From Rheinheimera riviphila (GTDB lineage: Bacteria; Pseudomonadota; Gammaproteobacteria; Enterobacterales; Alteromonadaceae), in NCBI RefSeq assembly GCF_004005945.1, contig NZ_SACS01000002.1, positions 186,001 to 250,000 on the forward strand: a stretch of 64,000 nt of DNA, given 5' to 3'. The notes beneath the pieces are model-generated. The model saw nothing but the letters and a program-made list of their open reading frames with translations, had not been told where the DNA came from and ran no database searches. Shown here piece by piece: positions 9,585-62,572 of the stretch (positions are counted from its first letter, which is position 1; each line of letters begins with the position of its first letter). A program made the translations under genes and the position numbers.

Positions 9585-9594
9585 TGACCCAAAC

Positions 9595-9632
9595 AAAAAG
9601 GCCTGACAGCAGTTCACTGTGAGGCCTTTTTT
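9595..9632. terminator. Bidirectional terminator between convergent genes
   Basis: The arms AAAAAGGCCT and AGGCCTTTTTT are perfectly complementary, with the A run on the left and the T run on the right. It can therefore stop transcription from both sides. It lies 38 bases beyond the rluB stop on the minus strand and after the first plus-strand terminator. Confidence 0.8.
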
Positions 9633-9669
9633 AAATAGGTGTCGCTGCTACAAAACAATAACCGATTCA

Positions 9670-10614: not shown

Positions 10615-10701
10615 TCTACTCCTCAGTCATCCCGACTGTGTTGGCAGTGGTTAATTGCATGATAATTAAACCTTGCACTACAATAACTTAGTGGATTTCG
10701 C

Positions 10702-11307: not shown

Positions 11308-11349
11308 GCAGGGATCCTGTAGGGATTGAGAGCCGGATAACGGCGCGCA

Positions 11350-12177: not shown

Positions 12178-12199
12178 GGCCGTGCATACTCAAGACGCA

Positions 12200-12820
12200 T
12201 TACAGAAAAGGTTTCACATCACCGGCACCTTCCCGTACCACCACCGCCACGTCGTCCGATAAATCAATCACCGTCGTTGGATTCCCCGGCAACACACCAC
12301 CGTGCATAATTAAATCGACTTGCCGCTCCAATTGATCGCGTAAATCTTCCGGATCAGATTCGGTAAACTCTTGCCCCGGCAGAATTAAACTGCTCGACAT
12401 CAGTGGTTCGCCCAATTCCTGCAATAACGCCAAGGCAATTTTGTGATCAGGAATACGCAGGCCAATAGTCTTTTTCTTTTCGTTAAGCAACCGTTTGGGT
12501 ACTTCTTTGGTGCCGCGCAAGATAAAGGTGTAGGCACCAGGCGTGTTGTTTTTCAGCAAGCGAAAAGCGGTATTTTCTACTTTGGCATATACCGACAACT
12601 CAGATAAATCGCGGCACATTAACGTCAAATGGTGATCACCGCTAATTTGGCGAATTTGTAAAATCCGCTCCATCGCCGCTTTATCGCCGATATGGCAACC
12701 CAAGGCATAACCACTGTCGGTCGGATACACCACCACGCCACCTTGTTTGATAATATGCACTGCTTGTTTAATCAAACGGCTTTGGGGCGTTTCCGGGTGG
12801 ACGTAAAAAAACTGGCTCAT
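12200..12820 (-). CDS. yciO: YciO, Sua5/YrdC-family protein
   Basis: YciO belongs to the TsaC/Sua5/YrdC fold, whose members make threonylcarbamoyl-AMP for tRNA modification. YciO itself is a paralogue whose cellular role is less clear. It is 206 residues long. The YrdC pattern is visible: GGVVVYPTDSGYALGCHI near residue 28, KAAMERILQIRQ, and PGAYTFILRGTKEVP near 99-113. IGLRIPDH follows. The position between rnm and scpA matches the conserved trp-flanking block in related bacteria and favours YciO over TsaC. Confidence 0.9.
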   Translation of the reverse strand: MSQFFYVHPETPQSRLIKQAVHIIKQGGVVVYPTDSGYALGCHIGDKAAMERILQIRQISGDHHLTLMCRDLSELSVYAKVENTAFRLLKNNTPGAYTFILRGTKEVPKRLLNEKKKTIGLRIPDHKIALALLQELGEPLMSSSLILPGQEFTESDPEDLRDQLERQVDLIMHGGVLPGNPTTVIDLSDDVAVVVREGAGDVKPFL

Positions 12821-48251: not shown

Positions 48252-50225
48252 TTAACTGGCACGCACGACCGCCGGTACTTCACTGACCGGCTTAAATACC
48301 GGCCGCACCGGGCTGGGATTTTTATCCAGGTTTTTGTCGGCAGTTTTATGTCCGGCATCGACCAAATCGCTGATTGGACTGCTGTGATTAAAGCCTGTCG
48401 GCGCTTCGGTGATCAGCTTCACTATTTGCGCCACGGCGAAGTTTTCGCAGTGGTGTTCAAGCTGACGTAGTAACTCGGACATTTCTTTCCACGACATCGA
48501 TACTTCATCGGCAGCCATAATCCGCGGATGGGCGGTTTGGCGCACGTTTTCACCGATCAGCAGCTCTTCATACAATTTTTCGCCTGGTCGTAAACCAGAA
48601 AAACAAATTTCAATGTCACCTTCCGGGTGTTGCTGATCTTTCACTTCCAGCCCCATCAGATGCACCATCCGGCGCGCTAAATCAGCAATACGCACCGGCT
48701 CGCCCATATCCAATACAAACACATCACCGCCCTTGCCCATGGCGCCCGCTTGAATCACCAACTGGGCCGCTTCCGGGATGGTCATAAAATACCGGATAAT
48801 TTCCGGGTGGGTCACCGTCAGCGGGCCACCATTGCGAATTTGCTCACGAAATAACGGTACCACCGAACCAGACGAGCCCAGCACATTACCAAAACGCACC
48901 ATACAAAAACGGGTGTGATGCTGACGCGTCGACAAGCCTTGTAATACCAGCTCTGCCAGACGTTTCGACGCGCCCATAATATTAGTTGGCCGCACCGCTT
49001 TATCGGTTGAAATCAGCACAAAAGTTTCAACACCGGCCGCAATGGCCGCTTCAGCAGCACACCAGGTGCCAAACACGTTATTGCTGACGCCTTCGACAAT
49101 ATTGTATTCAACCAGCGGCACATGTTTATACGCCGCAGCATGGTACACGGTTTGTACCTTAAAGCTCTGCATCACTGCTTGTACCCTGGCTTGTTTTTGC
49201 ACGTTGCCAAGAATAGGTTTTAACTTTACATCGACACCAAGCTCTTGAATATAAGCAGCTAATTCTTGCTCAATGCTATATAGCGCAAATTCTGATGCTT
49301 CAAATAGCACCAGCATCGTCGGTTCGTATTGGACGATTTGGCGACATAATTCCGAGCCAATCGAGCCACCGGCACCGCTGACCATCACCACTTTTTCTTT
49401 AATATTGGCGTGCATCAGTTTTAATTTTGGTGCCACCGGATCACGGCCAAGCAAGTCTTCAATTTTGACATCTTGTAATTCATCAATCCGCATCGAGCCA
49501 TCAACAATATCGCTCATGCCCGGCACTGTTTGTACCGGAATTGGTAAATTATCTAAGGATTCAAGCACTTCACGACGCCGTGCCCGACTGGCAGATGGCA
49601 TCGCCAATAAAATACGGCTGACATTTTTTGATTTTACGATAGCAGCAATTTGTGCCGGGCTACCAACATGCATGCCAAGAATGGTTGAGCGTTGTAAGGT
49701 TGCATCGTCATCGACAAAGGCCACAGGATGAAATTGTTCGCCGTTCAAAAGTGCCTGCGCCAACTGCCGACCAGAAGAACCGGCCCCATAAATCAGCACC
49801 CGTTGTTTATGACCATTGTGCCGCTGGAATAAAAACATCCGCGCCACCAAACGTAAACCACCGCTGGTCACCAACGCCAGAATGGCATACACGAACACCA
49901 GATTGCCTTTATCGGCAATACCAACCAACTGAAATAACATCACCAGGATCATCGCGTTACTCAGAATACCCGCCAGCACAGCACCAAGCGCATGTTGCCC
50001 GATATAGCGAATAACCGCGCGGTATAACCCTAATTTGGTGAAAGCCAGAATCGTCGCTGGAACAGATAGCAGAAAAATTGGGAAGGTTTGCAGCAATGCC
50101 GCGAGAGGAATTTCCTGTGTAACGTAAACAGCAACCAACATTGAAAATGTTAAAAATCCAACATCAGCAATTACTGAAATTGCACGTTTGGCATAACGTG
50201 GCAAAGACAAAAGCCATTCAAGCAT
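48252..50225 (-). CDS. Membrane nucleotide-sugar dehydratase (CapD/WbpM/PglF type)
   Basis: This is a polysaccharide biosynthesis enzyme that probably makes a 4-keto-6-deoxy UDP-sugar (UDP-GlcNAc 4,6-dehydratase type). It is 657 residues long. Four membrane helices cover 1-110, and a first Rossmann site YGAGSSGRQLAQAL lies near 144. The catalytic short-chain dehydrogenase domain has SGAGGSIGSELCRQIV near 289 and STDKAVRPTNIMGASKRLAEL near 400. Met stands in place of the usual catalytic Tyr, as in WbpM and FlaA1-like enzymes. A Pro-rich tail follows. It is the last gene of the surface block on this strand. Confidence 0.92.
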   Translation of the reverse strand: MLEWLLSLPRYAKRAISVIADVGFLTFSMLVAVYVTQEIPLAALLQTFPIFLLSVPATILAFTKLGLYRAVIRYIGQHALGAVLAGILSNAMILVMLFQLVGIADKGNLVFVYAILALVTSGGLRLVARMFLFQRHNGHKQRVLIYGAGSSGRQLAQALLNGEQFHPVAFVDDDATLQRSTILGMHVGSPAQIAAIVKSKNVSRILLAMPSASRARRREVLESLDNLPIPVQTVPGMSDIVDGSMRIDELQDVKIEDLLGRDPVAPKLKLMHANIKEKVVMVSGAGGSIGSELCRQIVQYEPTMLVLFEASEFALYSIEQELAAYIQELGVDVKLKPILGNVQKQARVQAVMQSFKVQTVYHAAAYKHVPLVEYNIVEGVSNNVFGTWCAAEAAIAAGVETFVLISTDKAVRPTNIMGASKRLAELVLQGLSTRQHHTRFCMVRFGNVLGSSGSVVPLFREQIRNGGPLTVTHPEIIRYFMTIPEAAQLVIQAGAMGKGGDVFVLDMGEPVRIADLARRMVHLMGLEVKDQQHPEGDIEICFSGLRPGEKLYEELLIGENVRQTAHPRIMAADEVSMSWKEMSELLRQLEHHCENFAVAQIVKLITEAPTGFNHSSPISDLVDAGHKTADKNLDKNPSPVRPVFKPVSEVPAVVRAS

Positions 50226-50330
50226 GCATTAAACTCCCAGGTTCCGTGTTGATGACAAGCTGAAGACAACGGAAAGCGTTGCTAGTATAACGGATAACGC
50301 CATTGTTACACCATCGAATGCTACAGTCTG

Positions 50331-51503
50331 TCACTTAACCTTATCTGAACTTGATTTCAAACCATTCGCAACTGCAATAACGACTTGTTGCCACAATTGC
50401 ACGCTTTGGTCTTGGTAAAATTTGATAGCGGTTTGCGCTTCGACTGCTTTCGCCAAAGTATTTGAACTTAAAAATAAAGCTTCCAGCTGCACCGCGTCAA
50501 CATCTGGCTGCAACAAACAATCCGCCTGTTGATATTCGCCGAACAAGGCTTCGTATTTATGGCTCCAACTGGTACCCAGGCAAGAGATGCCGGAAGACAA
50601 AGCACTGACACAACCGTGGAACCGCGAACAAACCACCAGTTTACTGCTGGCAATCCAGCCTTTCACTTGACGCGGATCCGGCTCGTTGATCACCCGCAGT
50701 GGCGGCTGAAATTTACTGGCAATCAACTGACAGATGTCGGCATCTGCTGCACCTTCATGGTTCAGTAACACCGGCTCAAGTTGCTGGCTGAAGGCTGTAT
50801 GCACCGCTAATTCCAACACCCGCAGATAATTGGCCTGCCATTGCTGATTGCGATTTTTTTTACTCACCATTGCCGCGTTCGGAATGATCAGGCACAGCGG
50901 TTTTTCTGGCAATTGCTCCGGCAATAGCGGCTTCACCAGATTGGTAAAATCAGCAAACTGCTGCAGGTTTGCTCTATCGCCCAACAATGAATGCAGATGC
51001 TGAAAACTGGCATCGTCGCGCGGGCAGACCAGCCAGGCCGCTGGTAAAGCAGCTTGCAGCTGCAGTCGTTCACGCTGCCCGGTAAAAGGACCAAAGGCCT
51101 GAGGTAACAATACATAACCTTTTTGATGGCGCTGCAGTCTTAAGATTTCATCGGTCAACACCTTGATGTTACGGCCACCCCATTGGTCACCATAAGCAAA
51201 ACCAGACGCATCCAACACCCAGTCGATATCCACTTCAAACACCACACCAAGCCAATGGCGCAGGAAACTGCGCAAACGCTTCGGCAGCCAGTAACTCAGT
51301 GCATTAAAATCGTAGCCCCGAAACCGTAACGGTAATTTTTGCAAGGCACCTAATAATGCGCGTGCCTGATAAGGCGAGTTTTTATTCGGCGCCAATGCAA
51401 TCTGCGCTTGTGGCCAGTGTTGCTGAATTTGCGCTAAACAAGCATGCAGCATCAACTCAGCACCTTTGTTGACGAACTGCACCCCACGAATTTCGATAAT
51501 CAA
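50331..51503 (-). CDS. Polysaccharide pyruvyl transferase family protein
   Basis: This is probably a transferase that adds a pyruvate ketal to a surface sugar (CsaB/WcaK fold). It is 390 residues long. The N-terminal IRGVQFVNKGAELMLHACLAQ, ASGFAYGDQWGG near 115 and the C-terminal CSRFHGCVSALSSGISCLGTSWSHKYEALF near 297-326 are the family marks. It lies between the dehydratase and a nitroreductase-like gene on one strand. The target polymer is unknown. Confidence 0.88.
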   Translation of the reverse strand: MIIEIRGVQFVNKGAELMLHACLAQIQQHWPQAQIALAPNKNSPYQARALLGALQKLPLRFRGYDFNALSYWLPKRLRSFLRHWLGVVFEVDIDWVLDASGFAYGDQWGGRNIKVLTDEILRLQRHQKGYVLLPQAFGPFTGQRERLQLQAALPAAWLVCPRDDASFQHLHSLLGDRANLQQFADFTNLVKPLLPEQLPEKPLCLIIPNAAMVSKKNRNQQWQANYLRVLELAVHTAFSQQLEPVLLNHEGAADADICQLIASKFQPPLRVINEPDPRQVKGWIASSKLVVCSRFHGCVSALSSGISCLGTSWSHKYEALFGEYQQADCLLQPDVDAVQLEALFLSSNTLAKAVEAQTAIKFYQDQSVQLWQQVVIAVANGLKSSSDKVK

Positions 51504-51540
51504 CCGCTTGATTCCTTGTCTGACTTACTCGTTTTAAATT

Positions 51541-52644
51541 CTAGTTTTTAGTGACAACTGGTTTTTGTGGATCCGGCTGCAATAACAACTCAGCCGGTTT
51601 TTTCTGCGAATAGGCAATACCACCATTGGGATCCGCATAGCCATAAGCAATCAGCATCACCGGACGTTGATAAGGTTGTAATTGCAGCCGTGTTGCCATT
51701 TTTTGTTCGCGGCTTTCAATGTCCGGCCAGTTAATCGGACAACTCGCTAAACCTAAAGTATCCAGCGCCAACATCAGCTGCATACTGGCAAGTGCTGCAT
51801 CAATGTAAATGACGTGCCGGTCGCGTTCTTCCGGGTAAGCACTTAAATCCCCGACCACCACCAATAACGAAGGAATATTCTCCGAAAAACCGGTGGTGCC
51901 CATAGCGAAATCTGCCACTTCCGCAGCCGTTTGCGGGTCGTCCAGATGAACAAAATAATAAGGCTGACGGTTGCAGGCAGAAGGCGCCAGACTGGCAGCT
52001 TCGATCGCTTGTTGTACCAGCGATGGCTCAACCGGCTGTGATAAAAACCAACGCACGGAACGGCGTCTTTTAAACAGTTGTAGTAAAGCATCGTAGCCAA
52101 CTCCGGCGGTCGGCAAATTTTCATAGGTGTAAGGAACTGATGCCGGCAAACTAAGCTGTGCTAAACGCGCTACGGCCACCGGGCTGAAGTCGGTAAATTG
52201 TTGCCTGGCTTTGTCAATCAACGGCTTACTGCCGACAATGGCGAAATACTCACTGAGCACTGCAAAAGCCCACTTGAGTTCGGCTAAGTCCAGCATGGTG
52301 ACTTTGTGACAAAACTCAACCACAGTCTCCAGAATATAGTCTTCGGCAAACACTGCCCGCCGTGGCTGCATAATCAAGCCTTTTTCCAGGCGGTGAATAT
52401 TACGGCGCAGCAAAATACTGCTGCTCGCTTGTTCAGACAACGACTGTTGGTAAGCTAAACGACCTTTGAGGACTGCATGTTGTTCGCGGCGAAAGCTGGC
52501 AGAAAAGAAGGTGTAATAAAGGCTGCTGGTGAATGGGGAGAAGGCACAGAACCCAGATACAATGAGTTTAAATTTACGGATTTGTTGTTTAATCATCAAC
52601 TTTTGGCTGACTGATAACCCAGCAGCAATTTTACGAAGGAGCAT
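51541..52644 (-). CDS. Nitroreductase-family protein with long N-terminal region
   Basis: The C-terminal 190 residues are a flavin nitroreductase fold: RRSVRWFLSQPVEPSLVQQAIEAASLAPSACNRQPYYFV, then ENIPSLLVVVGD and GLASCPINWPD. The first 180 residues are helical and of unknown function, with LLRRNIHRLEKGLIMQPRR near 77. Such fusions are often seen beside polysaccharide pyruvyl transferases, as here. The start is uncertain: ATG at 52644 (367 residues) or 52596. Neither has a strong ribosome site. Confidence 0.75.
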   Translation of the reverse strand: MLLRKIAAGLSVSQKLMIKQQIRKFKLIVSGFCAFSPFTSSLYYTFFSASFRREQHAVLKGRLAYQQSLSEQASSSILLRRNIHRLEKGLIMQPRRAVFAEDYILETVVEFCHKVTMLDLAELKWAFAVLSEYFAIVGSKPLIDKARQQFTDFSPVAVARLAQLSLPASVPYTYENLPTAGVGYDALLQLFKRRRSVRWFLSQPVEPSLVQQAIEAASLAPSACNRQPYYFVHLDDPQTAAEVADFAMGTTGFSENIPSLLVVVGDLSAYPEERDRHVIYIDAALASMQLMLALDTLGLASCPINWPDIESREQKMATRLQLQPYQRPVMLIAYGYADPNGGIAYSQKKPAELLLQPDPQKPVVTKN

Positions 52645-53124
52645 AAGAAGCCTTGAACAGTGGACTGCCAACAAGCCATTTATTCAGTCCGGGAAAAACA
52701 AACATCAGGGAATCACTGACACTCTCGAATAACAAATGAAATCTCTGGTTACAATTAAAGCCGGACTTTATGGTAATGCGAGCCCAGATCGCCACTCTTT
52801 TTATCACCAACCATGCTCATTTGGATGTCGGTTATGGGTCCATCCGACGGTGAACAACCGATGATGCCGAATGGCACAAGCTATTTCACGATGGCTTTAA
52901 CTTTCAAGACAGTTTGTACTAAATTCAGGATAAAAAAAAGCTCAACAAGTAGTCTGTTGAGCTTATAAATGAAATTGAATCTAGTCCACGGTTATAATAT
53001 CGAATTCTGTCGAAAATAGCTGCAATTATTTTGCAGAATTAGTAAGTTTTAACCAACTAAATCTGCTGTAAAAACGCAAGCTATATAACTGAACTGACTA
53101 AAAATAATCGCTTCACTTTATGTA
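52645..53124. other. Intergenic region with a stray terminator
   Basis: About 480 bases without a gene I can support. A 42-codon frame from an ATG near 52737 has no ribosome site and matches nothing familiar. On the minus strand AGCTCAACA..TGTTGAGCT with eight T forms a good terminator at 52932-52965. It follows 160 AT-rich bases that contain no gene, after the upstream exported-protein terminator. It could end a small RNA or be a backup stop. Confidence 0.4.
52932..52965 (-). terminator. Minus-strand terminator with no obvious gene
   Basis: The nine-base arms AGCTCAACA and TGTTGAGCT surround a seven-base loop, and the minus strand continues with eight T. The nearest upstream gene on this strand has its own terminator at 53125. 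Confidence 0.75.
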
Positions 53125-53152
53125 AAAAAAACGGACCCGAAGGTCCGTTTTT
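53125..53152 (-). terminator. Terminator of the abundant exported protein gene
   Basis: AAACGGACC-CGAA-GGTCCGTTT with flanking A and T runs gives a strong stem with a stable tetraloop, 15 bases beyond the stop at 53167. Confidence 0.9.
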
Positions 53153-53166
53153 GGAACACTAACTAA

Positions 53167-54543
53167 TTACTTAGTTTGAACTTTAGAATCGTTGTTAACG
53201 ATTGCGCGTTCACGTGAACCAGCGTCTACGTATGCAGAGTAAACAGTTACTGAATCTTCTGGAGCGTTCGTTACGATACGCAGAGAAGCTTTACCGTTAG
53301 TCAGACCAGCAGCGCCAACTGCAGTGCGAACTGCACCAGCGATTGAAGTTACTGAATTTGCAGTAGCAGTACCAACTTTCAGGTTAGTAACCAGAGCAGT
53401 ACCGTCTTCACCCCATACGTCAACGTAGATATCGCCAGCTACTGAAGAGCTGTTGGTTACGTTGATGATTTGGCCATACTGAACTGTGTTCAGAGTACCG
53501 AATACCATGTATGGAACGTTTACAGTTGAGCCGTTCAGAGTCCAAGAACCGCCTGACTTAGTCAGTACAACAGTACCAGCAGGAGCTGTGTGAGCAACAG
53601 TTGCTTCAACAGCATATGAACCTGGGTTCAGAGTAACCAGAGATTTAGCTGGAGCAGCAGCAGAAACGTTTGCAGTCACAGTTACAGCAACCGGAGTAGC
53701 AGCAACTGGAGTGTCAGTGAACGTCAAAGTACGCAGGTCTGTAGACAGCGCTTTAGCAGTAATAGCTGAACCGCCAGCAACAGCTAACTGAGCCAATTCT
53801 GGAGCAGAAATTGTGCCGTTTGCATCTTGGTCAACCCAAGTGAAATCGCCAGTTACTTTATACTTGATAGTGCTACCAACCAGAGTAGCAGCTAAAGTAT
53901 AAGTATCGTTGTTAGTAGGAGTGATGGTTAAAACGTCAGCACGTGGAGTAACACCGCTGAACAATTTACGATCTTCGTTTACATCTACTTCAGCGTCAAA
54001 CGGAGTAGTTGCTACAGAGAACTGTTCTTTAACAACCAACAGCTTACCAGTGTTAGTTGTTGCAGCGTCTAATACGTCGTTAGCAATAGTTTTTGCTGCA
54101 TAAGTTACGTTAACAGCTTTGCTTGCTGCAACAGAAGCTTTAGTCAGCACAACACCAGCTAAACGAATAGAACCGTCGATAGTTGTAGGAACTACAGCCT
54201 GGTCGATTGCTGTAACGCGGAAACTTACGCTGTTAGCAGTACGGTTCAGGTAACCTAAAGTGATACCAGCTGACAGGTCTGGAGCGCCAGCTAAACCAAC
54301 TAAAGTTGGGTTTGCACCAGTCAGAACAACTTCACCACCAGTGAAAGTGAAAGTGATAACGTCGTTTAAAGAGTATTCAGCTTTTAACTGAACATCTAAA
54401 GCTGCCAGAGAGATAGAAGTTGCACCAGCAACACCCTGTGCAGAGTAGTTAGTCTCTGGGTTTGGAACAACAGCAGCAATAGCGTTACCAGCTGCAGCAG
54501 CCAGAGCCAAAGCTACTAAAGATTTTGTAAAGATTGTTTTCAT
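53167..54543 (-). CDS. Exported, probably abundant surface protein (S-layer-like candidate)
   Basis: This 458-residue protein starts at 54543 (MKTIFTKSLVALALA) with GGAGAAAG just upstream. The signal peptide ends near residue 23 (NAIAA). The body is rich in Ala, Thr, Val, Ser and Asn with almost no Cys and strand-like spacing. A calcium-loop pattern, DQDANGTISAPE, lies near 239 (EF-hand/dockerin-like Asp positions 1, 3, 5). Codon choice is strongly biased and unlike its neighbours (GTA/GTT Val, GCA/GCT Ala, CGT Arg), as in very highly expressed genes. It has its own strong promoter and terminator and follows the T2SS secretin. S-layer or biofilm-matrix function is inference. No SLH domain is seen. 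Confidence 0.65.
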   Translation of the reverse strand: MKTIFTKSLVALALAAAAGNAIAAVVPNPETNYSAQGVAGATSISLAALDVQLKAEYSLNDVITFTFTGGEVVLTGANPTLVGLAGAPDLSAGITLGYLNRTANSVSFRVTAIDQAVVPTTIDGSIRLAGVVLTKASVAASKAVNVTYAAKTIANDVLDAATTNTGKLLVVKEQFSVATTPFDAEVDVNEDRKLFSGVTPRADVLTITPTNNDTYTLAATLVGSTIKYKVTGDFTWVDQDANGTISAPELAQLAVAGGSAITAKALSTDLRTLTFTDTPVAATPVAVTVTANVSAAAPAKSLVTLNPGSYAVEATVAHTAPAGTVVLTKSGGSWTLNGSTVNVPYMVFGTLNTVQYGQIINVTNSSSVAGDIYVDVWGEDGTALVTNLKVGTATANSVTSIAGAVRTAVGAAGLTNGKASLRIVTNAPEDSVTVYSAYVDAGSRERAIVNNDSKVQTK

Positions 54544-54640
54544 TAGAACTTTCTCCAATTTCATGAAATTGAAACATCTGGCATCGTGCCTTAGCTTCTT
54601 TTTTAGTTAAGAAACTGGGGCTAACCAATTTCCTCGTGAC

Positions 54641-54674
54641 ATTCTATTACCGTGACAACTTTTGTCAACGGTAA
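54641..54674 (-). promoter_or_regulatory. Strong promoter with overlapping inverted repeat
   Basis: On the minus strand TTGACA (54668-54663) and TAGAAT (54646-54641) are spaced by 16 bases, close to the sigma-70 ideal. An inverted repeat spans 54647-54674: TTACCG and TGACAA on the left, TTGTCA and CGGTAA on the right, broken only by one extra T. It covers the -35 site and spacer, so it looks like an operator. The resulting leader would be about 90 bases. It contains CAATTTCATGAAATTG just before the ribosome site. Confidence 0.8.
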
Positions 54675-54703
54675 ATTTTTAAAAAATCTCAGGAAAATAA
54701 CAG

Positions 54704-56815
54704 CTAATTGCTGTTTTTTTCATCGGGCAACTGTAGAAGCTCCAGGCCACTTGCCAGTTTATTCCGTACATTTTGCCATTGACTGGTATTGTCAATGACG
54801 CGTGGCGTAATCAACAATAACAGTTCTGTTTTCGTTGTGGAATCTTTTTGTGATTTGAATAGGTTACCAATAATTGGCAAATCGCCTAAAAGTGGTACTT
54901 TCGTTTCAGAACGGTTGATATTTTCTGACATCAGGCCGCCGAGTAAAATGGTCTGACCGCTTTGTGCTATCACTTCGGTTTTTAATGTCCGTTCAAAAAT
55001 GGCCGGGTTGGTTGTCGCTGAAGAAAGCTCGGCGTCCCCGGAAATACTTTGATCAATTTCCATTACGACCAACCCTTGGGCACTAATCGAAGGTGTGACC
55101 GAAAGTTCGATACCTGTGCGGCGATAGCCCTGACTATTAACCTGACGTACTTCGTTCGGGTCTAACGGGTTCGATGTGGTTGCAGTCACTATAGGAAGGT
55201 CAGTGCCCACGGCAATAGTTGCAGTAACACCATCACGCACTACAATTGACGGACTACTTAATACATTGACCCGGCCATCCTTTTGCGTCAGCTGACCTAA
55301 TATTTTATCCACTCCGGCCGCATCGCTATAACTAAAGGAAGTACCACCAATCTCGGCTAACCCAAAAGCACCAATATCCCCCAGATTAAACCGGCCGTTT
55401 TTTAAAGCAAATTCAATGCCCATCGCAAATTCATCGGTTAACGTGACTTCAGCAATGGTCGCTTCGAGGATAATTTGTTTTGGCATGGTATCGAGGCGTT
55501 GAATCATCGGTAACAAGCTTTGGTAATCTTTGCCTGATGTATAAAAAATTAAAGCGTTCGCGCGTTCATCGACCGTCATCCGGACGTTTTCATTCTGGGC
55601 GGAACTAACACCGGGCTTGCCTGTTGTCGCCGCAGCGCCAGTACGGATATTGGATGCGTTGCCAGCATTGGCTTCAGGTGTTTCCGACATTGCAGAGCTG
55701 GTATCACGACGTTGATTGACCTGCTCATTTTCCTGCCCCAGCAATGAAGCCACCGATTGGCCTAAATCTGAGGCCCGGGCATACCGCGGGTAAAACATAA
55801 AATACTGTTTGTCGGTGCCCTGACTAGGCTTATCCAGCTGCGCCGCCCAATAATTGACGCGTTCGACGTAAATTTTATCGGCAGCAAACATGGCGATAGC
55901 ACCAATTTGTTCAATTGGGATCAATACCAAATTGCGGTTACCTGGCTTGTTGATATCAACCGGCAACCCTTCACTCGCCAGTAACTCGGCAATTTTTTTA
56001 CTGAAATCTTCGGCGGTAATATAAGTTAAACGGAGTAAACCGACATGTCGGCCGCGCACTGATGGGTTATCCAACATATTTAACAGTTCAATTGCCCGTA
56101 AAATATCGTTGCGCTCACCGGTAATATAATATGCACTCTGACCATCAGCAGGCATCACCTGGGTATTGCTTAAATCGCGGATGGTGCGTTCGATCGACAG
56201 ATCCTGATTATATAACACCGGCACTAACTGGGTAATTTGTCCTGGCACATTCGGTACATCAGCCGGGTTACGACCGTATCCCAGCACCGAAGATCCAGGT
56301 TTGCTGGCATCTTTTGGATGGATAAAGTACACATTGTCTTTCAGCGAAACTGCGATATTGCGACTGGCCAATAACTCAGAAATCAACACAAACAGTTGCC
56401 GGGGACTCACCGCTTCCTGCACATTCAGGCTCAGGGGGTCGCTCAGATTGGCGATACCATCGGCAATCACGTAGTTTACTTTTAATAACTCACCAAATAC
56501 CGTATGGATCAGCTCGTCGCCGGCCATCGCATCAACGGCGATAGTCAGCTCCCCTAAATTACTAAAGCGGGACGACAAATCGAGCTGGCTTTGTAACCGC
56601 TGCCGTTGATTGGCTAATGGCGTAAGTTGCTGATACCCGGATTGCGTCAATTGGCTCTGCTCAGCAGCCGCTAACTCAGGCTCTGTCGCCGTGATGTCCG
56701 AGGCTCCTGATATTTTGGCCGCAGGAATTTTTACCGGACCGGTCGCGGTGGCGCAAGAAGCGAGTACCGATAAAGCCAGTAGTGACAGACTGGTGTGTTT
56801 AACAAATATCTTCAT
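54704..56815 (-). CDS. gspD: Type II secretion secretin, lipoprotein (GspD-like)
   Basis: This is the outer-membrane secretin channel of a type II secretion system. I start at 56815 (MKIFVKHTSLSLLAL), which gives 703 residues with a lipobox LASC (Cys21). N0/N1-type domains are visible (VNYVIADGIANLSDPLSLNVQEAVSPRQLFVLISELL near 130). A Ser/Asn/Thr-rich linker lies near 360-400, and the secretin core has PKQIILEATIAEVTL near 438, VGTDLPIVTAT near 530 and GQTILLGGLMSENINRSETKVPLLGDLPIIGNLF near 615. The lipidated N-terminus resembles XpsD. It is the last gene of the operon. Confidence 0.93.
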   Translation of the reverse strand: MKIFVKHTSLSLLALSVLASCATATGPVKIPAAKISGASDITATEPELAAAEQSQLTQSGYQQLTPLANQRQRLQSQLDLSSRFSNLGELTIAVDAMAGDELIHTVFGELLKVNYVIADGIANLSDPLSLNVQEAVSPRQLFVLISELLASRNIAVSLKDNVYFIHPKDASKPGSSVLGYGRNPADVPNVPGQITQLVPVLYNQDLSIERTIRDLSNTQVMPADGQSAYYITGERNDILRAIELLNMLDNPSVRGRHVGLLRLTYITAEDFSKKIAELLASEGLPVDINKPGNRNLVLIPIEQIGAIAMFAADKIYVERVNYWAAQLDKPSQGTDKQYFMFYPRYARASDLGQSVASLLGQENEQVNQRRDTSSAMSETPEANAGNASNIRTGAAATTGKPGVSSAQNENVRMTVDERANALIFYTSGKDYQSLLPMIQRLDTMPKQIILEATIAEVTLTDEFAMGIEFALKNGRFNLGDIGAFGLAEIGGTSFSYSDAAGVDKILGQLTQKDGRVNVLSSPSIVVRDGVTATIAVGTDLPIVTATTSNPLDPNEVRQVNSQGYRRTGIELSVTPSISAQGLVVMEIDQSISGDAELSSATTNPAIFERTLKTEVIAQSGQTILLGGLMSENINRSETKVPLLGDLPIIGNLFKSQKDSTTKTELLLLITPRVIDNTSQWQNVRNKLASGLELLQLPDEKNSN

Positions 56816-56828: not shown

Positions 56829-57335
56829 TTAAGGAGCCACTGCAGGTGGCTGCTTTTTCTCAAATAAGCGTAAAGTGACAGTCGCATCACCTTGTTGGAT
56901 AGTGACAGAGCTGCGATCAATGGCAACAACAGATAATTCGGTATTCCCCTGAGCAAGCCCCCAATGCTGCAGCTTGCCACTGACAGTAGCGGCTGCTGGC
57001 TGCACTGCTAAGATGGCGTAATATTGCTGCTTGTTCTGGTAAATCGCATAAAGCCCCAGGTAATAATCGCCCAGTTGTTTGGCATCAACTGGCTTGTTGC
57101 TGGTTGCATGTTGTTGATCGTCGGCAGGACCTGCCTGCTGATAGCTTTGTAACTGACTGATCAATTGTGCCGGCACCACAGGTGCTTGCTGAACCTCAGG
57201 TAACGAAGCTGGCTGCCAGGCTTTGTCCAGATGCGGCAAAGGCGACCAGACACGCAGCCAGAGGTCAACCACGGCAATCAGCATGGCTATGGCCAGCCAG
57301 ATGTAATGCCCCGCTTGTAACTGGAATCGATTCAT
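56829..57335 (-). CDS. Type II secretion GspN/GspC-like protein
   Basis: This 168-residue single-pass protein has a membrane helix at 11-30. The C-terminal domain resembles the GspC/PilP homology region (YYLGLYAIYQNKQQYYAILAV, then GLAQGNTELSVVAIDRSSVTIQQG). In T2SS this domain contacts the secretin N0 domain. Position between M and D is that of xpsN in Xanthomonas. No separate GspC is seen in the visible part, so it likely fills that role. Confidence 0.7.
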   Translation of the reverse strand: MNRFQLQAGHYIWLAIAMLIAVVDLWLRVWSPLPHLDKAWQPASLPEVQQAPVVPAQLISQLQSYQQAGPADDQQHATSNKPVDAKQLGDYYLGLYAIYQNKQQYYAILAVQPAAATVSGKLQHWGLAQGNTELSVVAIDRSSVTIQQGDATVTLRLFEKKQPPAVAP

Positions 57336-57883
57336 TGCGCGGACTCCAACTGATAAAGCACATCAATCGTCAATTGCTGCTCGGCCTGATTGTCCATCTT
57401 AAGCCCCCCGCTCTGATTGATTTGACTCGCTTCAATACTCGCGCTTGGGAAACGTTGTTGTAAGGTAATACCTGCAAGCGCCAGTTGATGCAATTTCCCG
57501 CTCAGCCGCAATTGGATCCTGCCGATCTGAAAACCAGCGGCAGCAAATTCCCGTTCGCCAACCCAGTCGAATAATTCAACTTTCACTTGCTGCTGCTCAA
57601 ACAACAGCTGCCAGCTGTTTTGTGTCTGCAGCGCCATCGCCTGGGCATTTTCGGCGACAGGCAGCTGTTGTTTTAAATCGGCTAACCGTTGTTGTAAGGT
57701 GGTTAAATCCTGATGAAGCGGTTCGGCAATTTGTTGTAATGCAAATACCTTGGCCAGTCGCTGGTTGCTGATGCTGAGTTCGTCAAGCTTGGCCGATTGT
57801 CCTTGATACCAGGGTTGAACCACAAACTTCAGCAGCAACAGCAATCCGAGAACTGCCAACAATAATGGCTTATTTTTCAGCAT
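57332..57883 (-). CDS. gspM: Type II secretion GspM-like protein
   Basis: This is an inner-membrane platform protein of T2SS that pairs with GspL. It is 183 residues long. A membrane helix lies near 6-24, followed by a helical region (LAKVFALQQIAEPLHQDLTTLQQRLADLKQQLP) and a ferredoxin-like periplasmic domain. It is recognised mainly by size, layout and position between L and the N/C-like gene. It overlaps both neighbours. Confidence 0.78.
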   Translation of the reverse strand: MLKNKPLLLAVLGLLLLLKFVVQPWYQGQSAKLDELSISNQRLAKVFALQQIAEPLHQDLTTLQQRLADLKQQLPVAENAQAMALQTQNSWQLLFEQQQVKVELFDWVGEREFAAAGFQIGRIQLRLSGKLHQLALAGITLQQRFPSASIEASQINQSGGLKMDNQAEQQLTIDVLYQLESAQ

Positions 57884-59009
57884 CGGCAGCTCCGGCAGTA
57901 AGTGTCACCTGAATATGGAACTGCTCTAACTCATTTGCTCTGCGGGTTGGTGCTGCAAACACAGCGGCTGCAACGCCCGGAGTTTTCTGTAAGTTGCTCA
58001 GAACATCTGTGGCACGGACAGCGGTACCACGCAATTGCAATTGTAAGCCCTGCTGCTCCACCACCGACAAATTTACATTCGCCCCAACTAACGCGGTAAT
58101 CAACTGCCAAACCGGTGCGATCATCGTCGTGTTTTGCTGCTGAGTGGCCACTGCTGAGATTTGGGTGGTAAGTTGTTGATGTTGTTGCTGCGCAGATAAC
58201 AGTTCATCCATCTGCGGGCCTAAAGCATCAATATCAGCTTGCCGTTCGGTCAGTTGCCAGTTGACTAACCAGCTACTCGTCAATAAATGTAATACCAGCA
58301 CCAGCGCAGGGATCGCCAACAGCGGGCGCCAGTCAGGTAGCACATGCGCAATTTTTGCCTGGTAAAAGAGTGCAGCGAGTTGTTTCGCTGACAACTTTTT
58401 TAGCCCCTGAACATACAAGCCCGCCAGAGCGGTCGCAGGCAGATCAACATGCGGCACCGTCTCTGACACCCCTTGCGCCAGACGAAACATGGCTAAGTTT
58501 TGTACCAAAGCGTTGGGGCGCTGTGAAATAACGCCTTGCGCGCCACAAAAGATAAACCAATCAGGTGCAGTCTGAATTTGCATCGTCGCCGGCCATTCAG
58601 TGCGCGACAACGCTAATAACAAAGATTCAGGCAGCAAAAAACAAGGGTGTTGCAAAGCATCGAGCAAGCTTTGATCAAACACATAACTGGTAACACGCCG
58701 CTGATTATGCTCCGCTTGAGCAATCAGATGCAGTGCATGCGATGGATAATCTTGCTGTAGTACAGCACGCAAGTCGTTGGCATCAACAATTGGATAATAC
58801 CTTTGGTATTCTGCGTACAACGACCGGGGGATAATCCGGAACAAACCGATGGCAGGGTTTGACGCACCCGGTTGCCAGCTACCATTGCTATAGTGTAAAG
58901 CGGTACAGAATGTAGTGCTTTGGATACCAACAAATCGGGCCACAAACCAGTGACTCCATTTTTGCCAGACATTAAATGAAGGTTCAGGGACTGACGGAGA
59001 GGTCTGCAT
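57870..59009 (-). CDS. gspL: Type II secretion GspL-like protein
   Basis: This is an inner-membrane platform protein that links the GspE ATPase to the pseudopilus machinery. It is 379 residues long. An actin-like cytoplasmic domain covers 1-230, with a membrane helix near 238-256 (LLAIPALVLVLHLLTSSWLV). A periplasmic PilN/ferredoxin-like domain follows, with coiled-coil spacing near 270-300. It overlaps gspK by 26 bases and gspM by 14. Confidence 0.8.
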   Translation of the reverse strand: MQTSPSVPEPSFNVWQKWSHWFVARFVGIQSTTFCTALHYSNGSWQPGASNPAIGLFRIIPRSLYAEYQRYYPIVDANDLRAVLQQDYPSHALHLIAQAEHNQRRVTSYVFDQSLLDALQHPCFLLPESLLLALSRTEWPATMQIQTAPDWFIFCGAQGVISQRPNALVQNLAMFRLAQGVSETVPHVDLPATALAGLYVQGLKKLSAKQLAALFYQAKIAHVLPDWRPLLAIPALVLVLHLLTSSWLVNWQLTERQADIDALGPQMDELLSAQQQHQQLTTQISAVATQQQNTTMIAPVWQLITALVGANVNLSVVEQQGLQLQLRGTAVRATDVLSNLQKTPGVAAAVFAAPTRRANELEQFHIQVTLTAGAADAEK

Positions 59010-59883
59010 AACTGTTTTTATAATAATCCCAAAATTGAAGTGGTTGTTCCGCTGTAGGTTCCAAATTTACGGAAAACTGCCGCGAAAGCTTAACACCGTT
59101 TCGATCGACTGTGAAGCGCAGCTGCAGGCCCTTGCTGGTGGTGAAACCGACAAATTCATCTTGTTCGATACCGGTTAACTGGCTAAATCGGTCCGGGGTT
59201 AAGGTGCCTTTGTCACGCTCTGCTAATACCTGTTTTAATTGTACCGGGTCGATATAATACCGAAGCATTTGTTCCGGCATCGCATACAGGTTTTGATATT
59301 TTTTGGGGAACAAAGTGATATAAGGTGAAATTTTTTCGATCAAATCAGGCGTAAACCCTTTAATTACACGAAGCTCGGAAACATCCTGAATCGTACTGTT
59401 ACGCACTATGACTGACGTAGTATAATCAGCTTGTTCGGCGCCACCAAAACGGGTCTCGTCGTCGCTATCCTGCCAGTCGTCGATGGCTGCGACTAAACTA
59501 CGAGCCAATACGTCGTCATTCGTGATCCCCTGCAACATGGGGAGTAATCCTGCTGGCGACAACAACGATTGCAAGCCACTGGTATCTTCTATTTGCACTC
59601 TGGCTTCGCCAAATAGAAATTCGGCATTGTCAAACGACCAGCGTTTTGGCAGTTCCATGGCACCATCAATGTAACGACGGCGGTGGTGCGTCAGCAGGGC
59701 AAACAAGGTTTCAGCTTCAACACTATTGAGCATGGCAGTCGCTTCGGCACGGGCTATTGCAAGCTCAGCCAGTTTGACATGGCGTTGTGCAGATGCATGA
59801 ATTGCCAGCAACATCACCATCAAAATAGCGCTGAGCAGTAGCACCTGTAATAACGCTATGCCCTGATTTATCGAATATTTCAT
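58984..59883 (-). CDS. gspK: GspK, minor pseudopilin
   Basis: GspK caps the pseudopilus tip together with GspI and GspJ. It is 299 residues long. The prepilin-like start NQGIALLQVLLLSAILMVML lacks the usual Glu at +5, as is normal for GspK. The conserved VAAIDDWQDSDDETR near 150-165 (calcium and helix-hairpin region) and a large C-terminal domain are visible. It overlaps gspJ by 4 bases. Confidence 0.92.
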   Translation of the reverse strand: MKYSINQGIALLQVLLLSAILMVMLLAIHASAQRHVKLAELAIARAEATAMLNSVEAETLFALLTHHRRRYIDGAMELPKRWSFDNAEFLFGEARVQIEDTSGLQSLLSPAGLLPMLQGITNDDVLARSLVAAIDDWQDSDDETRFGGAEQADYTTSVIVRNSTIQDVSELRVIKGFTPDLIEKISPYITLFPKKYQNLYAMPEQMLRYYIDPVQLKQVLAERDKGTLTPDRFSQLTGIEQDEFVGFTTSKGLQLRFTVDRNGVKLSRQFSVNLEPTAEQPLQFWDYYKNSYADLSVSP

Positions 59884-60584
59884 ATAAAATCCTGGCTTTG
59901 ATCTGAACGCTTTAGCAATGACTGGGTTCGTTCGGCGACCGGCAATTGCCAGTTAAAACCTGACAAATTTATAGAAACAAGAATAGGGTGAGTACGCTGT
60001 ATCAGAGCGTCATGCTCTGGCAACCATTGATAATTAATTTTAAGAACGTTGCCGGCGTCATCAATCCGCTGATTGATGTCCAATGCTGATTCGGTGTAAT
60101 ACGCAAATTCAATGGATAATTGATCTTCCGACACCACCAGGCGATGGGCAAATGGTAATTGCTGTTGCGCCCTGACTAACGGCGCTTCAGCCAGGGATGC
60201 TTCTTCATACACCAACTGATATTTACCGTCAGGTCGGATTTCCTTAAAAACCCGGATGACAGCGGGTGCGCCGGGATTAAACACAGGGGCCACTGTCACA
60301 GCGGTGAAACCTTCAGTACGGCCAAGAAAATAGAAGCTCTGCTGCTGATTTGACATCACCATATACGGTACTATGCCGTGCAGCGCAGTCGAGACCAAAT
60401 CATAACGACGCAACTGTTGAAAACCGCTGTCAATCTTGCTCAGATTGCGTTGCCACTGGGCTTGATAAAGCTGATAGCCGTACATTGCCGTCGCCAATAC
60501 CACCAGCAGGATACTGGTCGCGATCAGCAATTCGACCAGGGTAAAGCCGGCTGCTACTCGGCGAATGCGTTTTGTGCTGTCCAT
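59880..60584 (-). CDS. gspJ: GspJ, minor pseudopilin
   Basis: GspJ is a minor pseudopilin of the tip complex. I start at 60584 (MDSTKRIRRVAAGFTLVELL), which gives 234 residues. The longer frame to 60743 adds 53 unsupported residues. The prepilin peptidase site AG|FTLVELLIA is complete with Glu at +5. A beta-rich globular domain follows. It overlaps gspI by 31 bases. Confidence 0.9.
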   Translation of the reverse strand: MDSTKRIRRVAAGFTLVELLIATSILLVVLATAMYGYQLYQAQWQRNLSKIDSGFQQLRRYDLVSTALHGIVPYMVMSNQQQSFYFLGRTEGFTAVTVAPVFNPGAPAVIRVFKEIRPDGKYQLVYEEASLAEAPLVRAQQQLPFAHRLVVSEDQLSIEFAYYTESALDINQRIDDAGNVLKINYQWLPEHDALIQRTHPILVSINLSGFNWQLPVAERTQSLLKRSDQSQDFI

Positions 60585-60994
60585 GCCAGTTCCTTGTATG
60601 ACAGCTGCCGTTGTTGGTTGTCCAACGACAAGGTCAGATTGACCTGATAGAGCCGATATCGTGGCTGATAAGTTGTTGCCAACATTGTTTCTGGGTCGAT
60701 AATATTTGGTGGTGATGCAAAAAGTTGACTGGTCGCTTGCCATTGATAACTGATCCCGGAAAAAGCACCGTCGCCATGCAAGTTTTCCAACGGATTACTG
60801 CGAATTTGCGTTCTGATGGTATCCATAATCAATGGCAGCGGCGCCAGCATGTTGACGACATTTGCGGCCTTTTCGCTACTTTGGCGCGCAGTTTTGAAAC
60901 TGACGGCAGTCAAAGCAAGTACTGCAAACATAATCACTGCCGCGATTAAAACTTCAATTAAGGTAAAACCACGGTTATTGCGCTGCATAGCCAT
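60554..60994 (-). CDS. gspI: GspI, minor pseudopilin
   Basis: GspI belongs to the pseudopilus tip complex. I start at 60994 (MAMQRNNRGFTLIEVL), which gives 146 residues. ATG at 60988 is equally possible. The prepilin site RG|FTLIEVLIA with Glu at +5 is clear, followed by a short beta domain. Overlaps with gspH and gspJ indicate coupled translation. Confidence 0.88.
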   Translation of the reverse strand: MAMQRNNRGFTLIEVLIAAVIMFAVLALTAVSFKTARQSSEKAANVVNMLAPLPLIMDTIRTQIRSNPLENLHGDGAFSGISYQWQATSQLFASPPNIIDPETMLATTYQPRYRLYQVNLTLSLDNQQRQLSYKELAWTAQNAFAE

Positions 60995-61364
60995 CAGACA
61001 GACTGGGAAGTTTAAGTTCAAGGGCCCGCTTACCAGCCTGTACATTTAACAATGTCGCTGAATAAGCGCCGGTTTTATTGATTACCAGCTGCTGCGGTGG
61101 AAAAAACAACTGCTCAAAGTGCAGTTGCTGTTCGCCAGGCTGAACGTTCAACATTTTTCCATCAAACTTTAATGTAATGACAGTGCCACGGAAAAATGCC
61201 CGTTGCGACTGCTGCTGCAGTAAATCTTCGACTTGTTTCAGTTCCGCAATACGTTGACTCCGGCTTAACTGCTCTGCCCCAAGTGGCCCCACCAGCGCCA
61301 TCACCGCGCCCATCACCGCGATCACCACCAACAGCTCGATCAGCGTAAAGCCCCGGCGTGGCAT
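60975..61364 (-). CDS. gspH: GspH-like pseudopilin (possibly acting as the main pseudopilin)
   Basis: This 129-residue pseudopilin starts at 61364 (MPRRGFTLIELLVV), with a prepilin site RG|FTLIELL and Glu at +5. The downstream part (LLQQQSQRAFFRGTVITLKFDG) matches GspH-type proteins rather than GspG. It lacks the GspG pattern with the Tyr-Pro and calcium loop. In Xanthomonas xpsG precedes xpsH, but here gspF is followed directly by this gene. Either it serves as the major pseudopilin or GspG is encoded elsewhere. Confidence 0.75.
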   Translation of the reverse strand: MPRRGFTLIELLVVIAVMGAVMALVGPLGAEQLSRSQRIAELKQVEDLLQQQSQRAFFRGTVITLKFDGKMLNVQPGEQQLHFEQLFFPPQQLVINKTGAYSATLLNVQAGKRALELKLPSLSDGYAAQ

Positions 61365-61366
61365 GG

Positions 61367-62572
61367 TTAAATACCAACGTCAGTGGTGCCGGTGATGCTG
61401 AGCATCATAATCACCACCACGCCACCAACGATGCCGCCCATCACCACGATCAGCAGCGGTTCTAGCAGGCTGGTCATCCGGGTAACCCAGGACGAGAACT
61501 CGCGTTGGCTACGTTCGGCGATTTCGCGGAAAATCCGCGTTAATTCACCACTTTCTTCGCCAACCGCCAACAAGGATGCAAAAAAATCCGGATACAACAA
61601 AGTTTGACGTAACGCCCCACTCAGCGCATCACCCCGTTTAATTTTATTGATCGCAATTTCCAGCTCGCGCCGCACCAGCGAATTTTTAATATTGCCACAC
61701 GACAACATCAGCGCTTGATCAACCGAAACTCCGGCATTGAGCATCATCGCCAAACCGCTGTTAAAACGGATCCGCTCGACCAGCACCACGGCTTGTTTGA
61801 GCACCGGCAAATTCAACTGCCATTTTTGAAAAGAGTGTTGGAATTCAGGTTTTTGCAGTGCATGCTTCAGCAAAAATACCCCGCCGATGATCGCACCAAG
61901 CAAATACCATTGATACTGCCGCATCCAGGCCGAACTGCTTAACAACAGCTGGGTATACACTGGTAAATCTGTTTTGCCCTGAAACATGGTTTCAAGATTT
62001 GGTACCACATAATTAAAAATAAACACGATGGAACTCAGACATACAAACAGAATGACCATTGGATAGGTCAGTGCCTGCGTGACTTTTTGCTGTAAGTCGC
62101 GTTTAAATGCCAGATCGGCAGCAAGGCTACGAAACACATCCGGTAATTTGCCGGTGGCCTCACCAATGCTGACCAAATTGACATAAAGCGAGTCAAACAG
62201 TTTATCATCGGCCAGTTGCAGCGCCTGCGACAATTGTTTGCCGCCGCGCAGTGACTTGCTGATTTTATCCAGCAGTGTGGCCAGACCCGGCTTTTTATTG
62301 GTGCGATTTAAAAGCTCAATGCCTTTGTCAATTTTTAATCCGGCATCTAACAACACCGATAGTTCAGTGGTTAAAAATTCCAGATCAGATAACGAAACTT
62401 TGGCTTTGCCAAACGAAAAACCGGAACTTTCCAATTGCAGTGGCTGTAAAGTTTTGACCAATACACCTTGCTGACGCAACATCTGGCGGGCGCTGTCAAT
62501 TGAATCAGCGCTGATGTCACCACTGACTTTGGCGCCGGATTGATCAAAACCGCTGTATTGGAAATTGATCAT
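61367..62572 (-). CDS. gspF: GspF, type II secretion inner membrane platform protein
   Basis: GspF is the polytopic core of the T2SS inner-membrane platform. It is 401 residues long, the usual size. Two GspF domains are visible (DLEFLTTELSVLLDAGLKIDKGI near 62 and RFNSGLAMMLNAGVSVDQALML near 270). Three membrane helices lie near 170-190, 220-236 and 373-395. The motif VGEESGELTRIF near 338 is typical. The start overlaps the gspE stop (ATGA). Confidence 0.95.
   Translation of the reverse strand: MINFQYSGFDQSGAKVSGDISADSIDSARQMLRQQGVLVKTLQPLQLESSGFSFGKAKVSLSDLEFLTTELSVLLDAGLKIDKGIELLNRTNKKPGLATLLDKISKSLRGGKQLSQALQLADDKLFDSLYVNLVSIGEATGKLPDVFRSLAADLAFKRDLQQKVTQALTYPMVILFVCLSSIVFIFNYVVPNLETMFQGKTDLPVYTQLLLSSSAWMRQYQWYLLGAIIGGVFLLKHALQKPEFQHSFQKWQLNLPVLKQAVVLVERIRFNSGLAMMLNAGVSVDQALMLSCGNIKNSLVRRELEIAINKIKRGDALSGALRQTLLYPDFFASLLAVGEESGELTRIFREIAERSQREFSSWVTRMTSLLEPLLIVVMGGIVGGVVVIMMLSITGTTDVGI

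Follow-up and report, generated by a model that had tools for sequence, protein, structure and literature searches.

A Slr4-family S-layer protein gene beside a divergent type II secretion cluster in Rheinheimera, and the conserved leader that precedes it

What is the protein encoded directly after the secretin gene of a type II secretion system (T2SS) cluster, by which route might it leave the cell, and what could govern its production? These questions are raised by a stretch of 64,000 nucleotides (nt) from Rheinheimera riviphila (contig NZ_SACS01000002.1, positions 186,001 to 250,000, forward strand), referred to below as the window, in which a first-pass annotation made from the letters alone had singled out a candidate surface-layer (S-layer) protein next to its own secretion operon. 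The answer favored here, to which a probability of roughly 0.8 is given, is that the gene, slr4, encodes an S-layer (or shed matrix) protein with an adjacent divergent T2SS for its export, strong expression signals of its own, and an slr4-specific mRNA leader. The interpretation of the first-pass annotation, a Slr4 protein with a dedicated T2SS, is supported: it is right but has already been published for the Slr4 family.

By its profile match, the 458-amino acid (aa) protein is a member of the Slr4 S-layer protein family. In a Pfam search computed here, PF19526 (Slr4) was matched over the entire profile (1-370 of 370) with an E-value of 6.7e-60 and 203.7 bits against a cut-off of 25; Slr4 was the sole Pfam family above cut-off, and no enzyme family exceeded it. 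The proposed relationship to Slr4 is thus borne out by a hidden Markov model (HMM) search. The mature protein (cleavage assumed after residue 23) contains 14.7 % Ala, 13.8 % Thr, 13.3 % Val and no Cys, and its N terminus reads, by eye from the translation, as a Sec-type signal of about 23 aa (MKTIFTKSLVALALAAAAGNAIA/A), in agreement with the earlier description of an exported, Ala/Thr/Val-rich protein of 458 residues. A comparison with RsaA, also drawn at that stage, fared differently. RsaA carries RTX repeats, and RTX-type families were absent from the Pfam matches of the Slr4 homologue at E ≤ 1; a phmmer search of the PDB returned no RsaA chain at E ≤ 1; and RsaA was absent among the 50 best PDB fold matches (a further 1461 matches lay at E ≤ 10). 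The RsaA relationship was rejected, having neither sequence nor fold support in these searches.

In Pseudoalteromonas tunicata, Slr4 has been experimentally shown to be an S-layer protein that forms a square lattice, the layer being lost in a deletion mutant, and it is also a major matrix component (PMC7821379; this and the other papers are cited from extracts). Proteomics in 2025 confirmed Slr4 as a major biofilm protein (PMC12153261). The position of slr4 directly downstream of a T2SS cluster was described in 2020, with the suggestion of a dedicated exporter (PMC7821379), and the adjacency is repeated in the AnnoView paper (PMC11094555). Slr4 beside a T2SS cluster is a published pairing, and what is new here is a member in Rheinheimera, not the setting. 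From the family, we infer both the secretion route and layer formation in this organism: Slr4 would reach the periplasm via Sec and would then leave the cell through the neighboring divergent T2SS; the secretin of that system, with its lipoprotein-type N terminus, looks self-targeting.

Reading past the window end, the cluster comprises eleven genes in the order G E F H I J K L M C D, followed by slr4 (Table 1), and the component set includes secretin, ATPase, platform protein, major and minor pseudopilins, and proteins of the L and M types. Support is graded, with Pfam matches for D, E, F, K and L, a strong match for G, weaker ones for H, I and J, and weak matches plus position for C and M; the called open reading frame (ORF) of the gspJ-like gene probably extends too far in the 5' direction. 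Since GspG alone among the cluster proteins passes an NCBIfam equivalog cut-off, and the secretin reaches 316.2 bits with TIGR02517 against a cut-off of 351.35, the system is a divergent T2SS. The secretin gene lies upstream of slr4, as had been noted from the letters, at a distance of 169 nt. Its product has a lipobox-like N terminus in which Cys21 is kept by all 16 aligned orthologues, and this suggests that the secretin targets itself to the outer membrane, as liposecretins do.

The linkage was computed across an order sample of 394 genomes and across named loci (the best 80 of 85 found with the secretin, some being from the same genomes as the order sample). Slr4 occurs in 18 of the 394 genomes and a gspL-like match in 17; all 19 genomes of the union carry the T2SS cluster with a Slr4-type protein beside it, the divergent long form in G347 being counted. 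The cluster is also present in G230 and G234, which the gspL search overlooked (2 of 19), and this search can likewise overlook divergent clusters in genomes without Slr4. In 16 of the 19 genomes, slr4 comes after the secretin in the same orientation (one of them, G052, with slr4 split into two ORFs); in two it stands head to head with the cluster (G075 and G150, the cluster of the latter being distributed across two or more contigs), and in G347 a 596-aa protein occupies the slr4 place. A Slr4 HMM match was found in 72 of the 80 named loci. Among the eight others, L096, L112 and L113 end near the secretin at a contig edge, and L102 shares its genome with L101, where Slr4 is present.

Two kinds of locus weigh against a constant pairing: in L087 and L095 (2 of 80) the secretin is present but no Slr4-type protein was seen near it, and in L061, L139 and L140 the position of slr4 is taken by a longer and highly divergent protein. 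These long forms measure 639 and 663 aa in L139 and L140 and 596 aa in G347. Taken alone, the 596-aa protein (G347/L061) gave no Pfam Slr4 match and a weak, biased HMM score, and the leader motif described below is absent from the 200-300 nt upstream of the long forms in L061, L139 and L140. An alignment of the three long forms matched the C-terminal part of Slr4 (profile comparison: probability 96.4, E 1.4e-9, 115 columns). A new cargo replacing Slr4 in G347 was rejected on account of this match, and a divergent long form is the likelier reading of that protein. Slr4 and secretin distances are correlated (Mantel r 0.61, 0 of 999 permutations), a result that shared ancestry alone could explain. 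Overall, the linkage of this T2SS to a Slr4 protein, first seen in a single locus, is strong across relatives.

AlphaFold2 modeled the Slr4 homologue with a predicted local distance difference test score (pLDDT) of 80.1 from 19 sequences and of 88.9 from 87, the latter with a predicted template modeling score of 0.80. The model shows the strand pattern of successive beta-sandwich domains, of which the C-terminal one (about 308-455) is well predicted. In a Foldseek search, the best PDB matches (lowest E 1.4e-9) were tandem immunoglobulin-like (Ig-like) adhesins, integrins and pilins, among them PrgB, antigen I/II C-terminal domains and Gram-positive pilins. Since the whole-chain template modeling (TM) scores of these matches are about 0.2, the domain type alone is matched and not the arrangement; a viral fold library gave generic matches only, Ig-like by name where named. 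The published P. tunicata Slr4 model, in contrast, is an L-shaped beta-helix after RsaA, predicted by I-TASSER threading (PMC7821379). The AlphaFold2 model speaks against an RsaA-like beta-helix for this homologue, and the predicted row of beta-sandwich domains is a testable alternative to that view of Slr4.

Three other accounts of the protein and its export have to be set against this reading. The protein might be an adhesin or matrix fiber subunit instead of part of an ordered S-layer, as its best PDB folds, Ig-like adhesin and pilin domains, would allow despite whole-chain TM scores near 0.2, and as the matrix role of P. tunicata Slr4 noted above would also allow. The square lattices of the latter and the loss of the layer in the deletion mutant nevertheless point the other way (PMC7821379), and this account is considered unlikely. 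Less probable still is export of Slr4 by a canonical T2SS, with the neighboring cluster serving other cargo. Four secretins were found in the genome (the Slr4-linked one, a canonical GspD on contig C92 with 545.6 bits, over cut-off, PilQ, and MshL), along with GspE-family ATPases beyond that of the Slr4-linked cluster; however, Slr4 adjoins and co-occurs with this cluster even where the two are rearranged (head to head in Aliagarivorans), and genomes without Slr4 gave no gspL-like match except G347, in the search that can miss divergent clusters. A soluble periplasmic enzyme, finally, would account for the Sec-type signal and nothing further; the first-pass annotation had named such a fold as the contrary outcome, and structure prediction gave a tandem, multi-domain beta-sandwich resembling adhesins and pilins (pLDDT 88.9), which, together with the Slr4 match and the lack of any enzyme family over cut-off, makes an enzyme highly improbable.

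The expression signals set slr4 apart from its neighbors. Its codon adaptation index (CAI) of 0.867 lies above the mean of 0.727 for the reference, 20 ribosomal-protein ORFs of the same genome with rplD excluded; the 49 window ORFs, slr4 included, average 0.545 (standard deviation, sd, 0.064), and the ten T2SS genes in the window range from 0.478 to 0.587. Five named relatives (L064, L065, L067, L068 and L076) have the same promoter hexamers and spacing upstream of slr4 as the window. Downstream, the intrinsic terminator has a predicted stability of -15.8 kcal/mol (z -3.9, with 0 of 200 shuffles equally stable) and is not listed by a consensus scanner. The strongly biased codons, near-ideal promoter and strong terminator of the earlier description are all recovered in these figures. 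In view of the strong promoter, the codon usage and the separate terminator, expression of slr4 probably far exceeds that of the secretion genes. The calcium loop that had been pointed out stands in part: DQDANG is present at residues 238-243, but a DxDxDG-type motif is not conserved in the family, being found in 14 of 87 homologues (4.1 expected in shuffles) and in none of the four nearest (L064, L065, L067 and L068). Asp makes up 10.0 % of the segment around the motif versus 7.6 % overall, and the calcium loop as a family feature was rejected as weak.

By sequence comparison, slr4 is preceded by a conserved leader element in which a covarying stem, P1, and a palindrome, P2, stand beside the ribosome-binding site. 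Leaders were taken for 86 of the 87 proteins of alignment A3, tandem extra copies being included and some starts being a few codons off. The 10-mer TTTCATGAAA was found in 67 of the 86, starting 21-35 nt before the assigned start and beside the Shine-Dalgarno sequence, while shuffled leaders give an expectation of 0.06 for a 9-mer of the motif. As a control, no 10-mer before the ten other cluster genes or the first downstream gene was shared by more than 14 of 74-75 loci, the C gene being represented by just 3 loci in this comparison and the M gene by 33. The bases flanking the motif are complementary in all 67 leaders (G-C 35, A-T 29, T-A 3), and the proteins sharing the element have 18-40 % identity to the window Slr4.

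Stem P1 lies directly upstream of the palindrome, and its sequence varies between leaders. Across 56 non-redundant representatives of all 67 motif-bearing leaders, with no selection for the stem, P1 reaches at least 10 pairs in 16 (1.8 expected from dinucleotide shuffles), at least 8 in 23 (8.7 expected) and at least 6 in 43 (27.9 expected). For covariation, alignment A6 kept 49 of the 67 leaders (P1 of at least 6 pairs, or membership in the Rheinheimera clade) and 42 after hand editing, in which L059, L073, L078, L079, L088, L099 and L138 were dropped and the starts of L065, L067, L068, L094 and L143 moved. In A6, 90.0 % of cells pair; shuffled alignments give 77.6 %, and sliding by 1-3 columns leaves no more than 61.4 %. 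Because A6 was chosen for P1, its pair counts lean towards P1. The covariation score of 0.404 exceeds those of the shuffles (0.192) and of the slid alignments (0.130 or less). Closer to the mRNA 5' end, in the zone comparable to the predicted hairpin P0, stems of at least 8 bp occur in 24 of 60 representative leaders against 13.0 expected.

Several observations weigh against a structured element of this kind. The exact motif is absent in 19 of the 86 leaders, at least four of which keep another palindrome; among variants, the CATG center becomes CTAG in L076, L090 and L060, and L048 has another sequence. The window's own P1 consists of five contiguous outer pairs, and the outermost P2 pair is unformed in 13 of the 42 A6 sequences. 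In one of five whole-structure measures on A6, pairs with two-sided changes number 8 versus 6.7 in shuffles, a value reached by 83 of 500. Single-sequence folds of four leader stretches are not significantly better than shuffles (z -1.2 to -1.7), and the minimum-energy fold of the window leader pairs UUCA of the motif with the Shine-Dalgarno region, so that P2 does not form.

So far the element has been seen at slr4 only. Its pattern TTTCATGAAA-N0-6-GGAG occurs once in the 4.7-Mb genome of the organism, at slr4. Covariance model R1, run over the 394 genomes with Infernal's stricter filters, matched 12 of them at E ≤ 0.01 with one site each, 12 of 12 before slr4; five of these genomes (G052, G233, G005, G175 and G172) lie outside the training set A6, and the window copy, which belongs to it, scores 31.3 bits at 54551-54593. 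At this threshold six Slr4 genomes were missed (G213, G311, G374, G230, G075 and G150), including G213, which has the exact motif before slr4. The 80 named loci gave 51 forward matches at E ≤ 0.01, 15 of them outside A6; by an automatic check, 42 of the 51 immediately adjoin the called start of an Slr4 ORF. As for the other nine, the ORF start had been placed upstream of the element in L100, L103, L120, L126 and L142, slr4 is split in L066 and L069, the called ORF begins 103 nt downstream in L121, and the contig ends before any slr4 in L112. Seven more matches at E ≤ 0.01 fall on the opposite strand of the same sites; since the palindromic core produces such matches, R1 does not prove the strand.

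Used as a looser search across the 394 genomes, TTTCATGAAA-N0-6-GGAG was found in 72, against about 55 for a backward control pattern (hand count). Thirteen matches continue with TTGGAG, CTAGGAG or CTTGGAG, and 11 of them are at slr4; the other two lie in a prophage-like region before a 16-codon frame (G330) and inside a coding gene (G118). A leader regulon was rejected on the sites read, the two strict-context ones away from slr4 being prophage-like or coding. Within positions 52900-55000, none of the 11 Rfam matches at E ≤ 5 reached its gathering score; the open-licence literature yielded no relevant report of an slr4 or S-layer leader, and the extracted main text of PMC7821379 does not mention the element. 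As far as these Rfam and literature searches reach, the element is new.

How might the leader act? The motif stands exactly 2 nt from the Shine-Dalgarno sequence in 37 of 67 leaders (sd 1.7), whereas its distance to the predicted promoter has an sd of 29.6 (45 leaders with a promoter of at least 10/12, itself noisy). This position, fixed to the Shine-Dalgarno sequence and not to the promoter, makes action on the mRNA probable, by way of stability or ribosome loading or of regulated translation; P1, the palindrome P2 and then the Shine-Dalgarno sequence would most likely influence mRNA stability or translation. Alternatively, the palindrome might work at the DNA level, as the operator of a dimeric transcription factor, and not as an RNA element. 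It is a perfect palindrome over the whole 10-16 nt, center included, where a hairpin loop needs no self-complementary center, and the variants listed above keep the symmetry. Yet the covariation of the adjacent stem P1, the near-fixed spacing to the Shine-Dalgarno sequence in place of the promoter, and the restriction of R1 to slr4 at one site per genome, unlike a usual regulon, leave an operator doubtful. For an element acting on the mRNA, the self-complementary center is unexplained by a simple hairpin, and a dimeric partner may be involved. The window fold that closes the Shine-Dalgarno sequence with UUCA of the motif hints at a possible switch. A tentative proposal is that the leader represents a new cis-acting RNA family, specific to this one S-layer gene in Gammaproteobacteria, in which UUUC of the palindrome would pair either with GAAA (P2, site free) or with the Shine-Dalgarno sequence (closed), matching production to secretion, for instance via Slr4 or a dimeric RNA-binding protein.

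The start codon contained in the palindrome, which in the window would extend Slr4 by seven residues in frame, was rejected as the reason for conservation, because the ATG lies in frame 0, 2 and 1 relative to the slr4 ORF in 17, 15 and 10 of 42 leaders, respectively, and the CTAG variants have no ATG. The leader could offer a handle, mutable base by base, on S-layer production versus secretion jamming in Gram-negatives, and its value as such lies in an element that stands at one gene only and was kept while the proteins drifted so far apart.

Several loci carry additional or interrupted slr4 genes. Four Pseudidiomarina loci and one from Ferrimonas contain three or four tandem copies; the exact motif is missing from copies 2-3 in L071, 2-4 in L074, 2-4 in L078, two in L079 and copy 2 in L118, and copies 1 and 3 of L118 carry it. 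In Rheinheimera texasensis DSM 17496, slr4 is split into 294 + 217 aa (L058:2365-3911, L066:12207-13776) behind an intact leader element (36.8 bits), which may reflect either a genuine inactivation or an error of sequencing. L069 (Alkalimonas amylolytica) likewise has an apparently split slr4.

Table 1. Coordinates of the slr4 locus and of related features (window positions unless another sequence is named)
Feature	Position	Strand	Evidence or remark
slr4, Slr4 S-layer protein homologue, 458 aa	53167..54543	(-)	PF19526, CAI 0.867, AlphaFold2 model
Conserved slr4 leader element	54551..54598	(-)	motif, covariation, covariance model R1
Stem P1	54571-54598	(-)	part of leader element
Palindrome P2, TTTCATGAAA	54559-54568	(-)	part of leader element
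Shine-Dalgarno GGAG	54553-54556	(-)	part of leader element
Predicted hairpin P0 near slr4 mRNA 5' end	54609..54634	(-)	single-sequence fold
Predicted slr4 promoter TTGACA-N16-TAGAAT	54641..54668	(-)	11/12 consensus matches
slr4 intrinsic terminator	53122..53160	(-)	11-bp stem, UUCG loop, U tract
gspD-like secretin, 701 aa, lipoprotein-type N terminus	54713..56815	(-)	PF00263 E 1.8e-44
gspC-like	56829..57335	(-)	weak NF041515 E 0.0097 + position
gspM-like	57332..57883	(-)	weak NF040576 E 0.025 + position
gspL-like, PilN domain	57870..59009	(-)	PF05137 E 2.3e-6
gspK-like minor pseudopilin	58984..59883	(-)	PF21687 E 5.8e-16; NF037980 E 1.5e-25, below cut-off
gspJ-like pseudopilin	59880..60743	(-)	N-methylation domain TIGR02532 E 0.0007 + position
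gspI-like pseudopilin	60554..61045	(-)	NF047828 E 1.7e-6, below cut-off
gspH-like pseudopilin	60975..61364	(-)	TIGR01708 E 3.6e-9, below cut-off
gspF-like platform protein	61367..62572	(-)	PF00482 E 1.8e-49
gspE-like ATPase, gene extends beyond window end	62572..63996	(-)	PF00437 E 4.7e-127
gspG, after gspE	G000:C37:250224-250628		PF08334 E 4.7e-29; TIGR01710 130.8 bits, cut-off 88.85
Surface-polysaccharide genes (Polysacc_synt_2, polysaccharide pyruvyl transferase) and nitroreductase-like gene	48252..52674	(-)	Pfam
Tandem slr4 loci: L071, L074, L078, L079, L118	12.3-21.9 kb		
Divergent long forms (596-663 aa)	L061:2424-4214, L139:12396-14315, L140:12337-14328		slr4 position
S10 operon interruption	L145 (G000:C36:24000-43000), 7906-12366		

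The wider setting is that of a polysaccharide locus. Apart from the genes of Table 1, the other flank of the slr4-T2SS cassette holds glycosyltransferases, a DegT aminotransferase and EpsG, and among 67 named loci the first gene after slr4 gives a Polysacc_synt match 14 times and a DegT aminotransferase match 7 times (raw counts, with no background rate). Polysaccharide anchoring of the Slr4 layer is a fair guess only. A polysaccharide pyruvyl transferase gene lies two genes from slr4 (50331-51503, minus strand). Pyruvylated polymers anchor SLH-type S-layers in Gram-positives (title of a reference in the PMC7821379 extract), and a similar anchoring role of this transferase for the Slr4 layer is, by analogy, worth a thought.

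Elsewhere in the same genome, the S10 ribosomal-protein operon is interrupted by an insert of about 4.4 kb between rpsQ and rplN (named by eye), which contains a group II intron maturase-like piece (9169-9471) and a LanC-like ORF (9904-11091) and could be an assembly join.

Structured 5' leaders are a feature of abundant surface-protein mRNAs, as in the ompA-type stabilizing leaders and S-layer mRNA leaders. The slr4 leader resembles them in placing structure between the transcription start and the Shine-Dalgarno sequence of what is probably a highly expressed surface protein; unlike them, and without an above-gathering Rfam match, it has a conserved palindrome and a covarying stem of its own. 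Caulobacter RsaA is also a Gram-negative S-layer protein encoded beside its exporter, but its secretion is of type I and it is calcium-stabilized (PMC7821379), whereas the neighbor of slr4 in the window is a T2SS. VapA of Aeromonas salmonicida and NpdA of Paracidovorax are likewise encoded by S-layer genes adjoining a T2SS cluster (PMC10765051); the sole above-cut-off Pfam family of the window protein is Slr4, and the likeness to VapA and NpdA is one of gene arrangement. The closest parallel is Slr4 of P. tunicata D2 (EAR28894, PF19526), with which the window protein shares the whole Pfam profile, what reads by eye as a Sec-type signal ending at about residue 23, a gene position immediately after a T2SS cluster and indications of very high expression, and from which it differs in that slr4 here belongs to a Rheinheimera genome and lies within a polysaccharide locus.

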